Source: Saccoglossus kowalevskii (taxonomy: Eukaryota > Hemichordata > Enteropneusta > Harrimaniidae). From it: a stretch of DNA of 32,886 bases. Location of the stretch: contig NW_003121418.1 of the NCBI RefSeq assembly GCF_000003605.2, positions 250,011 to 282,896 of the forward strand, in the 5' to 3' direction. The notes below the pieces were generated by a model. That model saw only the letters and a list, made by a program, of their open reading frames with translations, was not told where the DNA came from and ran no database searches. Positions 24,975-32,886 of this stretch are shown in pieces (position 1 is the first letter of the stretch; the number at the start of each line of letters is the position of its first letter). The position numbers were made by a program, and so were the translations under genes.

Positions 24975-25007
24975 ATAGAGTACTAGTAGACCTGACACCC
25001 AAAAGGT

Positions 25008-25064
25008 ATGCACGATGAAAAACTTTTCGCAAATCAACACAACGACGGAAGTCCCTTATCTTAA
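25008..25064 (+). promoter_or_regulatory. Overlapping upstream ORF at the GPCR start
   Basis: An ATG at 25008 lies 7 bases before the GPCR ATG, in a different frame, and reads 18 codons before TAA at 25062-25064. Its context is weak (no purine at -3 and no G at +4), so many ribosomes should pass it. Because it overlaps the main start, every ribosome that does use it skips the receptor. Such overlapping upstream frames dampen translation of many receptors. The effect here is inferred, not shown. Confidence 0.5.
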
Positions 25065-26502
25065 CGTGTCGGGTGTTTCGGATTTCACGTCAGATGAACC
25101 TAGTTACGCCGAGGAAACTGCGACTGAAACATCAACTGAGGTCGATGACAGTTATTCCTACGACTATAGCTGGGATATCGATGTACCCGATAGTGTATAC
25201 ATTGTCGTGTTGGGCATTGCGTCTGTGCTCATCGTGGTGGGCAACCTTTTGGTCATTATTGCTGTATTCAAACAACCAAAACTACGACGTTCCGCTACAA
25301 ACCTGTTCATCGTATCACTGGCCTTTTCAGATCTTCTTATCGGACTCTGCGTCGGTCCGATGGAGCTCATTCGGATAATGGGTTCCAGGCTGTTGGTCAC
25401 AGTTGAAGCTTTGTGCGATATCCCGGGCGTCCTTCAATATACCAGTATCTGCACCACCATATTTACACTTGTGGCGATAGGCGCGGACCGCTACCGCGCC
25501 ATTGTTCAACCCATGAAGCCACGCGTCTCAGTGCATAAAGCTCGAGTGTGCATAGTTGGCATTTGGGTGTTGGGGTTTGTGTACGCTGCGTATCGATTTC
25601 CGGTGCATGGAGTGACATTCTGGTATGGCAAGACGGAAAATGACAGTCGTTTGTACTTCTGTGAGGTGCTTCCTCAGATGCATTTTATAGAGATCCCGAT
25701 GACTGTTGTACACCTCGTGGTTCTATACATTGTTCCGCTGATTACGTTGACGTATCTTTACGGTAGAATGATCGTCACGCTATACGGCGGCACGTCGATC
25801 AACGACGAGTCCAAACGTAGAAAGAAACGAGCAGTCAAGATGTTGTTACTAGTTGTCGTGATGTTCGCTCTCAGCTGGTTACCGTATAGAGTCCATGCTG
25901 TGCTGTATTTCTACGACGAAAGCTGGTTCACCGACTCCTGGTTCATATACAGTATATTTTACTTTGCATATCTCTCGAACAGTTTCGTCAACCCGATAAT
26001 CTACGCTGCTTTCAGCGCGAGTTTCCGCCGGGAATTCGTTACAATCTTGACTTGTGGCTTACACGAAGCGCTCGTGAAGAGGAGGCGACGGGGTGTGGAG
26101 CTGCTTCAAACACCTAAGTCGCAAAGCGGCAGTACCGTCACTGGCATGACCCAGGTCACTGGAACTGGTAGTAGCGTTTATCGGAGCGAAAATAGCATGG
26201 CTATGGAGAGCATTAAAAGAGAGGATGCTGTGAAAAACAAACACGTAGTCATGGAAATGGAAGGTAGCTCAGTTTGCGAGAGGCAGGACGAGTCCTCCAA
26301 TTTCGAGTCACAGCTACACCAAACTATCAAACCTGAAAATATTTCTTACGACAACACATGCTTCACACAAACTGAAGATCAACATGTTTTGGGAACGATC
26401 ACTGAAGAAACTGGGAACTCAGAGCAACATGTGGACTATACACATCAAACGATATCGTCTAAAACCATGACGAACTGTTCAACACAGACATCACTTGAAT
26501 AA
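25015..26502 (+). CDS. Class A (rhodopsin-like) neuropeptide-type GPCR, TRH-receptor-like
   Basis: A 495-residue seven-helix receptor, complete in one exon. The extracellular N-terminus (1-58) is acidic with three N-glycosylation sites (N3, N8, N17) and no signal peptide. Helix 1 has GN at 76-77, helix 2 the LAFSD aspartate D106, helix 3 starts after C134 and ends in DRY (158-160), and helix 4 has W184. C216 in loop 2 is the disulfide partner of C134. Helix 5 has P241, helix 6 SWLPY (W288, P290; the usual Cys of CWxP is Ser), and helix 7 NPIIY (326-330). C347 is a possible palmitoylation site. Helices 5-7 (VPLIT..LYG, KML..VV..FALSWLPYR) remind me of TRH receptors, but the helix-7 TRH-binding arginine is not conserved, so the ligand is probably another peptide. 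Loop 3 is short and basic, suited to G-protein coupling at the plasma membrane. The tail of about 145 residues is Ser/Thr-rich and holds two TQT motifs (451-453, 490-492). ATG 25015 follows an acceptor at 24974 and is the first ATG in this frame. The gene family is certain; the subfamily is tentative. Confidence 0.93.
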   Translation: MKNFSQINTTTEVPYLNVSGVSDFTSDEPSYAEETATETSTEVDDSYSYDYSWDIDVPDSVYIVVLGIASVLIVVGNLLVIIAVFKQPKLRRSATNLFIVSLAFSDLLIGLCVGPMELIRIMGSRLLVTVEALCDIPGVLQYTSICTTIFTLVAIGADRYRAIVQPMKPRVSVHKARVCIVGIWVLGFVYAAYRFPVHGVTFWYGKTENDSRLYFCEVLPQMHFIEIPMTVVHLVVLYIVPLITLTYLYGRMIVTLYGGTSINDESKRRKKRAVKMLLLVVVMFALSWLPYRVHAVLYFYDESWFTDSWFIYSIFYFAYLSNSFVNPIIYAAFSASFRREFVTILTCGLHEALVKRRRRGVELLQTPKSQSGSTVTGMTQVTGTGSSVYRSENSMAMESIKREDAVKNKHVVMEMEGSSVCERQDESSNFESQLHQTIKPENISYDNTCFTQTEDQHVLGTITEETGNSEQHVDYTHQTISSKTMTNCSTQTSLE

Positions 26503-27309: not shown

Positions 27310-27820
27310 TTTAGCTGTAGAATACCCTGCTTCAGTTACAGTGTATTCAGCTTCAGTTGTAGTATATTCAGCTTCAATTGTAGTGTATTCAGTTTCAGTT
27401 GTAGTGCATTCAGCTTCAGTTGTAGTGTATTCAGCTTTAGTTGTAGTATATTCAGCTTCAGTTGTAGTATATTCAGCTTCAGTTGTAGTGCATTCTGCTT
27501 CAGTTGTAGTATATTCAGCTTCAGTTGTAGTATATTCAGCTTCAGTTGTAGTGCATTCTGCTTCAGTTGTAGTATATTCAGCTTCAGCTGTGGTGTATTC
27601 ATCTTCAGTTGTAGTATATTCATCGTTAATTGTATGTACAGTTTCAGTTGTAGTATATTCTGTTTCAGTGGTAGTATATCCTGTTTCAGTTATAGTATAT
27701 CTGCCTCAGTTGTAGTATATTTAGCTTCAGTTAGAGTATATGCTGTTTCAGTTGAAGTATATCTAGCTTCTGCTGTCAGTAGTATATGTGCTCCAGCTTC
27801 TGCTGAGTTATATGCTTCTG
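27310..27820. repeat. 21-bp minisatellite in the intron between the ECHDC3-like exons
   Basis: About 22-24 copies of a 21-base unit, consensus TTCAGTTGTAGTATATTCAG plus C, starting with a degenerate copy at 27310-27330. The units are near-exact from 27352 to 27624, one unit is shortened to 18 bases (27625-27642), and the right edge decays. A three-unit (63-base) higher-order pattern repeats at 27478-27540 and 27541-27603, where a TGCATTCTGC variant unit leads two standard units. Because 21 is a multiple of three, both strands stay open (YSASVVV on plus, LQLKLNI on minus). These are not genes. Confidence 0.95.
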
Positions 27821-29926: not shown

Positions 29927-30262
29927 CAGCTAAAGATTATCATTTCCTGGACTGGAACACGTTTGAAAGGTTTCTTGCATTGTGGGATTTTATGTAAAAC
30001 ACGAATATTTCCGTCTTCGGACCTTCAGATATAAGCTAGGTTGGAAGCGTCAAATCGGCAGTCACCTTTATCTACAGGTCACTAGTCCATGTTAATAATT
30101 AAACAATCTAACACACCTCCAGTCTCATACAGCTGACGTATTTGAATTCGCCCTCACATGTCGTGTTTCTGAAAGAAATAATCCAAACACTGATACGTTG
30201 ATATATACTAGTATACTGGTCATCTTGATAAGAGCATGCGCCGAGCTATATTTTAGTTAAAA

Positions 30263-30325: not shown

Positions 30326-30420
30326 ACGAAGACATCAAACTGTGCCTGGGATCCTTGTACGACTGAAGTAAACGTCTGCGACGACAATCAGCGGTACTTG
30401 GTGCAAGGTTTGAATCTCAG

Positions 30421-30825
30421 TGGAGAAGCACTGGTTCATTTATGCTTTGGTTTTAACTGTTGTTACGTTCACTAATACTATGACTACTGTTACCTCTGTC
30501 CCCGGGCCTTTCAGGGCACCCGTTACATCGAAAGATTCATGGAGAACCCTGTTTGTGGACTTAAGCAGTAACCTGTCATCGGAGGAATTTGTTCGAATCA
30601 CGCAGTATCTCCGTAGACGGCAGATACCACTACCAGGCGAGGAGAATTTAAAATCGTCTTTAGATATATTTATATACTTGGAAAACATTGGCTGCATTTC
30701 CGGGAGTGACATCTCCCTTCTGATGGATATTTTAGATCATATTGAGCGGAAATCGTTGAAAAAGATGGTCGCAGCGCACCAGGAGAACACAGTGGATAAG
30801 CACGATGATCAGCCACGTCATACAG
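30421..30825 (+). CDS. Death effector domain (DED) protein with hydrophobic N-terminus, 5' coding exon
   Basis: Following CTCAG at 30416-30420, the frame TG GAG AAG CAC... runs to CAT ACA G before a perfect donor (GTGAG, 30826). DEDs are six-helix death-fold modules that pair with each other in FADD/caspase-8-type assemblies. Counting the first residue as that completed by the split codon (Met if the upstream base is A), residues 40-118 fit a DED: helix 1 SWRTLFVDLSSN, helix 2 LSSEEFVRITQYLRR, then IPLPGEENLKSSLDIFIYLE, GCISGSDISLLMDILDHIE, and the terminal RxDL position as RKSL (110-113, Asp replaced by Ser). Residues 5-17 are hydrophobic, followed by TNTMTTVTS, a credible signal peptide or anchor. 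There is no ATG in frame upstream before a stop at 30411-30413; the next in-frame ATG is 30480 and would remove the hydrophobic part. So either the start codon is completed by an upstream exon, or a cytosolic form starts at 30480. Confidence 0.75.
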
Positions 30826-31146
30826 GTGAGTGGTTGGTTGAAATAATCACATATATGCGGTATGCTTAACTTTAGTGCATGTACATTATCAGTGGAGGTA
30901 CTCGCCTCTGACCTTCTATTTTGTTGCCTATATTACGGTGTAACTAAGAGGCCAAAGATTATAGCACATAAATGAGGCTCAGAGGGCTGGTATCAATATT
31001 AACCCAAATATTGTAGGTTCATGTTTGATATACAAGTATGTTTCCCAATGTAAAATACTGTGCTGGATGGGTGGTGATTCTGTCCCGTGCCCCGTGCATA
31101 TATATCCCTAGGTGGGTACTTTCCAGAAAAGAACGACAAAAATGTG

Positions 31147-31190
31147 CCGCCAGCACCCCGCCAGCACCCCACCAGCACCCCGCCAGCACC
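31147..31190. repeat. 11-bp tandem repeat, four copies
   Basis: CCGCCAGCACC is repeated four times with one mismatch (CCACCAGCACC in the third unit). It is strongly GC-rich against its surroundings. Open frames across it on both strands (proline/histidine-rich or glycine-rich) are repeat artefacts. Confidence 0.95.
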
Positions 31191-31283
31191 CGCAAGATTC
31201 ATACCCCTTTCAAGTCAACAAATGCGTAAAAGCGTAAAAAGTTCCGGCCTTTTATCTATTTTTGCGAAGAATGCATACTCATA

Positions 31284-31350
31284 CTATGGTTCTTTTTTGA
31301 CATGGGTTACGAATAACATAAGCCTTTTTTCTGTCACAATTAACAATATT
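31284..31350. repeat. Dispersed repeat, copy 2 of 2
   Basis: Related to 28764-28830 in the same orientation, sharing TTGACATGGGTTA and the order of the following words. It lies inside the presumed DED-gene intron. Confidence 0.5.
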
Positions 31351-32731
31351 TATGGAACCCAATATTTATAACCCTCGACGGCTTGCACTCAAAACCGTGT
31401 GGATTATGCAAATTGTGCGCCCGCGTCCTCCTCTAGAAAGTGAATGTGTCATGTGTCATAGTAACGGATGGTCTCCTAGAAACAAAGTTTGCTTTGCTCA
31501 TGCGATAAAAGCAATGTAGAACGGTGAGCAACGTAATAAATTACCAGTTCACCTCACAGTCGGTCTTCTTGTATGTAACATAACATAAATCAAGACCATT
31601 TAATCTGAAGTGGTTTACTTAGTGTCTGCTGCATATTTGAGTCATGAAGGTCAAATAAATTAAAATTTGTATAAAATGTACAGTGCAGTTGGTAACTTGA
31701 AGTTGCCTTGAACTTTATCCCGTAAAATGTTAAAGTTAAATACATGTATTACCATTGTCCGCTGTCTATTTTAACGGGATTTATAATACGTAGATTTAGT
31801 GACTTTTGACAATCTGGGTCATTTTTTTACGAGCACAATATAAGTGGGATATAAGAAACACTGCCACGATTGTCGTGCCACCGCTCTGTGCTGCATGATA
31901 CTAACAATACTCGTATTTGACTGAAGTGTCTCTGCAATAAATTCTCTCAAATACGTTACAAAACCATAGCAAATTTTGCTCATAACTACAATAAAACATG
32001 TTATTATTGCACAGTAGAAAACGTACGCACATGCAGGTGAGTTACCCCCCCCCCCCACCCTCATTAAAACAACTAAATTGTAACGGGTCAAAAGCAGGCA
32101 GGGCCAGGTGTGCCCTCTTGTAAAAAAATGAAAATATTCGTAATTTAACAACAATTTGCTTGGTCGATATACACAATTTTGGGTGCCGGAGTGCCAGTTT
32201 TAGTAAAATTGACAGTTGCTCAAATCCACAGGTTGGTACTTGTCCTAAATACAAACTAGCGTACTCCCCGCTAACATATTTGACACGATCCAGAAGTGCG
32301 ATTCCCGGACATCGACCTCTATCACCAAAACAACAAGCCGGATAAGTCTGCCGACGAACTGGCGTTTACCAACTTCAACAAATGACGAGCTTTCAATTTA
32401 TGTACAGTGCTATAAACCCTACATCAATACAAATGTATAATAATTTAACAAGCCGGGTGACACAACACTGTAAGCAAAGACACCCAAATGCATTTTTTTT
32501 TTAGGTTTTTGCCGTAAAGAGGCCATGGTGTATGGCGATGCATACGCACGGCTCGACGTGTCACGGCAACAACAGTAAAATTAAGGGAATTACATTCGTG
32601 GATGCCAATATGATTATAATAATTGTGCGGCAACCACATAATACTCATACGCACGTGAACGTGATGATATTGATTCAAAGCAGACGACAATGACATAAAA
32701 AACAAACTAACGAAATACACTATACTTTCAG

Positions 32732-32866
32732 GGATGGTCAGTAAACTGCTGATAACAACCGGAGTCATTGTTTACCTGGCAGCCTCGGCCTGGTTTGTAG
32801 GAATCGAATCTTTCATATTCTTCGGAGTATTGATCCTGTTGCTTGGAGTAGTCCCGGCTATTCGAG
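32732..32866 (+). CDS. Exon with two adjacent membrane segments, probably of the DED gene
   Basis: Acceptor TATACTTTCAG ends at 32731 and the donor GTAAGG starts at 32867. The 135-base exon reads GG ATG GTC AGT ... ATT CGA G in one open frame with no stop. It needs one base from the previous exon, exactly what the DED exon (ending ACA G) supplies, giving HTG|GMVSK. It then encodes LLITTGVIVYLAASAWFVGI, ES, and FIFFGVLILLLGVVPAI: two hydrophobic stretches of about 20 and 17 residues with almost no loop, a membrane hairpin or re-entrant pair. It leaves in phase 1, so another exon follows beyond the window. The alternative is that ATG 32734 (G at +4) starts a separate membrane protein. No family is recognised for this part. 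Confidence 0.6.
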
Positions 32867-32886
32867 GTAAGGCTGAATGCGGCTGT

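Follow-up and report, generated by a model that had tools for sequence, protein, structure and literature searches.

The window, by which is meant the whole stretch of 32,886 nucleotides of Saccoglossus kowalevskii DNA that was analysed, carries at its 3' end a candidate gene for a protein with a death effector domain (DED), of which an exon encoding the domain and a probable next exon encoding a predicted membrane hairpin could be read (Table 1). The contig ends at window base 32886, 20 bases past the exon 32732-32866, and the gene is cut there. Upstream, an intact frame on the forward strand (24979-26502, Met 25015) encodes a GPCR of the rhodopsin family, 495 residues long (168 bits for Pfam 7tm_1), with the neuropeptide FF receptors 2 and 1 as the nearest solved structures. 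A 21-bp minisatellite of about 21 copies lies at 27329-27770; it is open in several frames and therefore produces spurious long low-complexity ORFs. A run of N occupies approximately 13.73-14.04 kb of the window. No second copy or allele of the surrounding DNA or of the contig end was found in the genome.

Table 1. Features of the candidate DED gene, in window coordinates.
Feature	Position	Strand	Basis
Hydrophobic extension of the frame, taken for a signal peptide in the first-pass annotation; probably untranslated	30414..30479	+	no in-frame ATG; 2.7-9.5% of background as hydrophobic; ordinary AG at 30419-30420
First coding exon of the favoured model: Met 30480, N-terminal DED, phase-1 donor	30480..30825	+	open frame; sole in-frame ATG past the upstream stop; perfect donor CAG/GTGAGT
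Death effector domain (PF01335)	30543..30776	+	Pfam 42.2 bits; whole-genome scan; low-confidence fold matches
Predicted intron	30826..32731	+	perfect donor; acceptor 3.09; CTAAC 22 nt upstream; no other phase-1 candidate exon inside, given the thresholds used
Probable exon for two membrane helices (135 nt, phase 1-1), GTAAGG immediately after it	32732..32866	+	pair hydropathy 2.02; 0/3877 background stretches, 0/405 candidate exons; one genome match
Predicted membrane helix 1, LLITTGVIVYLAASAWFV, limits by hand	32746..32799	+	Kyte-Doolittle hydropathy, 19-residue windows, maximum 1.93
Predicted membrane helix 2, FIFFGVLILLLGVVPAI, after the loop GIES, limits by hand	32812..32862	+	Kyte-Doolittle hydropathy, 19-residue windows, maximum 2.55

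The DED lies in an open frame spanning 30414-30869 on the forward strand, with a stop just 5' of 30414. It was identified by a profile search with a score above the curated Pfam cut-off of 35.9 bits (E 9.4e-11), the match covering residues 22-99 of the protein counted from Met 30480 and positions 2-78 of the 82 positions of the profile. The whole-genome PF01335 scan recovered it at the same place (E 3.3e-8), and no other Pfam family matched the exon at E up to 10. A low-confidence structure model matched DED-type folds, including the DEDs of FADD, caspase-8 and cFLIP; PEA-15, whose chain in 1n3k has 130 residues, was also among the DED matches. The domain is certain, and the DED call made in the first-pass annotation for an exon at 30421-30825 is confirmed. 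The RxDL position reads RKSL, as had been remarked there, and the E/D-RxDL charge-triad motif is absent. The reading is correct, yet the change is ordinary for this genome: the D of RxDL is absent from 12 of the 23 rows of the DED alignment, the window included (rows taken from the 67 places of the genome scan), so the motif does not decide DED membership. According to a passage in PMC4558505, the role of RxDL may vary among DED proteins, and the choice of partner is therefore not readable from RKSL.

The donor CAG/GTGAGT at 30825/30826, in phase 1, is one of only two perfect MAG/GTRAGT sites on both strands of the window. A survey of 13 other DED regions, of which the 11 with an anchor peptide were counted, revealed a phase-1 donor 82-100 residues past this peptide in seven; one of the seven also has a phase-2 donor further on, and no donor at threshold was present in L042, L041, L037 and L044. 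A phase-1 exon end past the DED is thus common in the genome. From 30826 onwards, the thresholds used left 32732-32866 and two shorter versions sharing its donor as the sole phase-1 candidates up to the end of the contig. The score of the acceptor of 32732 was reached by 7.0% of 1493 AG sites. A CTAAC 18-40 nt ahead was found for 23 of 1490 AG sites, this one included, while YTNAY was found for 594 of 1490 and a stricter pattern for 115 of 1029. The splice scores are ad hoc consensus sums, not the output of a trained model, and the acceptor threshold of 2.6 was chosen after the score of 2.41 for 30421 had been seen. The joined reading from 30825 to 32732 is in frame without a stop, and the next exon is in the matching phase 1, as had been proposed. 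Since agreement in phase alone is expected by chance in one case out of three, the join is put forward as a prediction from the sequence signals, and a likely one.

The exon 32732-32866 has an open frame that starts and finishes in phase 1 and reads MVSKLLITTGVIVYLAASAWFVGIESFIFFGVLILLLGVVPAIR. With limits set by hand, its hydrophobic segments measure 18 and 17 residues and are separated by the four-residue loop GIES. The weaker of the two best non-overlapping 18-residue windows averages 2.02, a value reached by none of 3877 open 44-codon background stretches; these stretches overlap one another, as do those of the codon and signal-run controls. Among the 134 candidate exons of the window, a pair of at least 1.7 occurs only in 32732-32866 and in an exon overlapping the minisatellite at 27329-27770, and none of the 405 candidate exons around other DED genes has one (13 stretches on 12 contigs, leaving out L041, which overlaps L035, and the short L046). 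Single hydrophobic segments above 1.5 are present in open frames near other DED genes (L033, L036, L039 and L042), so one segment means little and the pair stands out. The tight pair of segments described earlier is upheld by these controls.

A genome search with the membrane exon returned one match, the exon itself, and no second copy. There was no match to PDB sequences at E up to 10, and against Pfam only sub-threshold matches were obtained (SdpI, E 0.41; DUF2116, E 5.3). A tblastn search of the fetched DED regions gave nothing convincing, the best match (E 0.56, in L033) being a hydrophobic stretch with stops. Synonymous-codon scores did not separate either exon from non-coding DNA, with 22% (DED exon) and 9% (membrane exon) of 3094 background stretches scoring as high. 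The exon is probably real. It has a K before helix 1 and an R after helix 2, and an E is the only charge of the loop. The positive-inside rule is a basis for membrane topology, and by this rule the pattern suggests a hairpin that most likely has both ends in the cytosol.

Three rival readings were weighed: two separate genes, a protein consisting of the DED only and, last in rank, a protein of the secretory pathway. The exon 32732-32866 begins with GG-ATG, the ATG at 32734 standing two bases in, and could therefore begin another gene. The DED exon would then splice elsewhere and 32732-32866 would be the first coding exon of a separate multi-pass membrane protein, the continuation of which would be hidden by the contig end 20 bases later. 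This explanation has to contend with the phase compatibility of the acceptor at 32732 with the DED donor, and with the fact that the thresholds used yielded no other phase-1 candidate for that donor on the remainder of the contig. It is considered unlikely.

Read without splicing, the frame from Met 30480 remains open up to the stop at 30867-30869 and would give a DED-only protein of 129 residues (30480-30869), with the size and layout of PEA-15, itself one of the DED matches. The perfect donor breaks this frame at 30825, however, and a phase-1 donor does likewise in the seven of 11 other DED regions mentioned above. An unspliced product of this kind appears quite improbable.

The start of the protein bears on the third rival. 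Met 30480 stands 21 residues ahead of the DED, with an A at -3, and no in-frame ATG was found between it and the stop before 30414. The hydrophobic run HWFIYALVLTVVTFTNT lies 5' of this sole in-frame Met, and a Met-initiated signal is thus absent within the DED exon, where the run precedes any in-frame ATG. HWFIYALVLTVVTFTNT could be translated only if an exon lying further upstream were joined at 30421. There, the acceptor (30420/30421) has a score of 2.41, with 42% of 1493 forward-strand AG sites scoring as high, and no match to the branch-point pattern was found upstream of it. ATGs upstream of the DED were listed at 30236, 30263, 30294 and 30442, of which only 30294 is in the frame of 30480; a coding start at this ATG was rejected, as its frame hits a stop before 30421 on inspection by eye.

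The mean hydropathy of the 17-residue run is 1.2, which is reached by 7.4% of the open 17-codon stretches elsewhere in the window. Within the 22 upstream codons, the best cores of 8, 12, 15 and 17 residues have a hydropathy that 7.2, 2.7, 8.3 and 9.5% of 15268 open background stretches also attain, respectively. The figure kindest to a signal peptide is that of the 12-residue core, with a mean of 2.45; the other lengths are ordinary. An in-frame Met at most 26 residues before the DED match, in the same open frame, was present in 14 of 19 comparable loci of the genome, compared with a Met in 42% of open background stretches of 26 codons. Of the 30 loci surveyed, these 19 have a profile match from position 8 or earlier; in the remaining 11 it starts no earlier than position 10. 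Five of the 19 lack an upstream Met: L008, L018, L023, L029 and L030.

Judged from these several modest lines, the protein most likely starts at Met 30480 and is not secreted, and the run before this Met is probably untranslated sequence that is open in frame by chance. A signal peptide ahead of the DED was rejected as the probable reading on the lack of an in-frame ATG, the average acceptor, the ordinary hydropathy and the Met near the DED in 14 of 19 loci; the signal-peptide-like segment of the first-pass annotation is accordingly not supported as part of the protein. The architecture proposed with it, in which hydrophobic segments would flank the DED on either side, is likewise unsupported before the domain, whereas a cytosolic DED with a membrane hairpin after it is supported. 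The secretory reading, in which a signal-peptide-like N-terminus would leave the DED luminal or within a secretory-pathway membrane protein, can point to the moderately hydrophobic frame open 5' of Met 30480, at its best in the 12-residue core, and to the AG at 30419-30420; an upstream coding exon is conceivable. A DED in the lumen would, however, be out of reach of partners in the cytosol. With the findings on start, acceptor and hydropathy also against it, the secretory reading is the least probable of the three rivals.

The genome contains at least 67 DED matches at E ≤0.001, of which 52 were marked above the cut-off, and some are clustered. Six lie within about 19 kb at C129:186677-205867, forming a local cluster; five matches on C3952 and four on C359 are more widely spaced. 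Among 30 loci, the DED closest in sequence to that of the window is on C3434 (L032), with 34% identity over 107 residues. It was also the best of five other places in a whole-genome search, and the two DEDs group in the tree of 23 rows with a local support of 0.845. No membrane exon comes next at C3434: the open phase-1 exon following the DED there is related to the one after the DED of C4670 (L039), with 31% identity over 87 residues. The C4670 exon matched TRADD-like_N with an E of 0.00082 and 19.6 bits, under the cut-off of 23.7, while the match of the C3434 exon (E 0.059) is at chance level and not its best. With E up to 0.1, exons of this type were found at five places of the genome, one of which is C3434. 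A genome scan with TRADD-like_N at E up to 0.01 gave one match, C3686:460449-460646, above the cut-off and in an open frame of 1134 residues; as the C3434 and C4670 exons were missed by it, the Pfam model is insensitive here.

Two further loci could be assigned by the domains that follow the DED. At C4134:31700-41600 (L038), the DED exon precedes a Death domain exon (68.7 bits), as in a FADD-like gene. At C3184:105200-115100 (L035), a NACHT exon (60.9 bits) follows about 4 kb after the DED exon in a DED-NACHT sensor-like gene, and DED-NACHT genes are described in amphioxus, sea urchin and Nematostella in a passage of PMC2575513. Because only exons in phase 1 were enumerated near other DED genes, the phase found for those of C3434, C4670, C4134 and C3184 is not independent evidence.

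The favoured model, with a probability of roughly 0.55, is a DED adaptor starting at Met 30480, in which a cytosolic N-terminal DED is tethered to a membrane by the two-helix hairpin of the next exon. It is based on the Pfam DED, the perfect phase-1 donor, the sole phase-1 candidate group, a hydrophobic pair far from background, an acceptor in the top 7.0% with CTAAC upstream and the Met near the DED in 14 of 19 loci. A hairpin with both ends in the cytosol would suit an N-terminal cytosolic DED. The model is weakened by the closest DED, that of C3434, the next exon of which lacks a membrane pair. From the earlier proposal of a membrane-anchored, possibly secretory-pathway DED protein, the DED with a two-helix module is retained as the best-supported gene model, and the secretory part is unsupported.

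DED assemblies are best known in the cytosol, where they are nucleated by receptors through FADD. The hairpin would fix the cytosolic DED to the membrane surface, and the anchored domain could gather DED partners on the membrane, whether by seeding, docking or sequestering them. Such gathering may promote or restrain DED assembly there. Candidate partners are present in the genome in the form of the FADD-like and DED-NACHT genes. If true, this would allow DED assemblies to be placed, seeded or held back on a chosen membrane with no need of a receptor and its adaptor, and a DED on a two-pass hairpin would be an added architecture in the shuffled death-domain repertoires of marine invertebrates. 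As this concerns one incomplete gene, its value is that of a testable candidate.

Small two-helix membrane effectors exist in bacterial defence. By analogy, clustering of the DEDs might pack the hairpins together so that a death-fold filament would directly deform or permeabilise the membrane, a self-contained mode of action that is regarded as improbable. Equally improbable is that the protein would be the animal counterpart of those bacterial effectors.

The window gene shares its domain with PEA-15, FADD, caspase-8 and cFLIP, as judged from sequence and, with a model of low confidence, from the fold. To our knowledge these proteins have no membrane helices, whereas the window gene probably has two. 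A likeness to the DED-TRADD-N genes (DEDD2-like and NCOA6-like clades) exists through the DED of C3434 and its next exon, related to that of C4670; in those genes TRADD-N takes the position after the DED, where the window has the membrane exon as sole phase-1 candidate up to the contig end. As described in part of PMC8195603, TRADD-N genes, which often carry a DED, have undergone lineage-specific expansion in cephalochordates, hemichordates, echinoderms, bivalves, brachiopods, cnidarians and a sponge.

The first-pass annotation named BFAR as the main familiar DED-like protein with membrane helices. BFAR (BAR, RNF47), an E3 ligase of the ER membrane, does fit, combining a DED-like domain and membrane segments in one protein as in the favoured model. 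Its DED-like domain binds caspase-8 and -10, and its anti-apoptotic effect requires the transmembrane, SAM and DED-like parts, as stated in a passage of PMC4021871. BFAR has a RING and a SAM domain, neither of which was matched in the two window exons read, and its layout is unlike that of the window gene, where the DED is N-terminal and the hairpin would follow directly. Left out of that earlier comparison was an expansion in Crassostrea virginica, presented in part of PMC8195603 as proteins with a Cys-rich ectodomain, a TM helix and an intracellular DED with TRADD-N. This is likewise a membrane-tied DED, in an invertebrate with expanded DED-TRADD-N genes; there, however, the TM helix precedes the DED, while in the window two helices would come after it, and no ectodomain would precede it with translation from the favoured start. 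Among the matches listed in a search of the open-licence literature, supplements aside, no N-terminal DED directly preceding a two-helix membrane exon stood out. Membrane DED proteins having already been described in BFAR and C. virginica, the window gene would represent a new arrangement of known parts.
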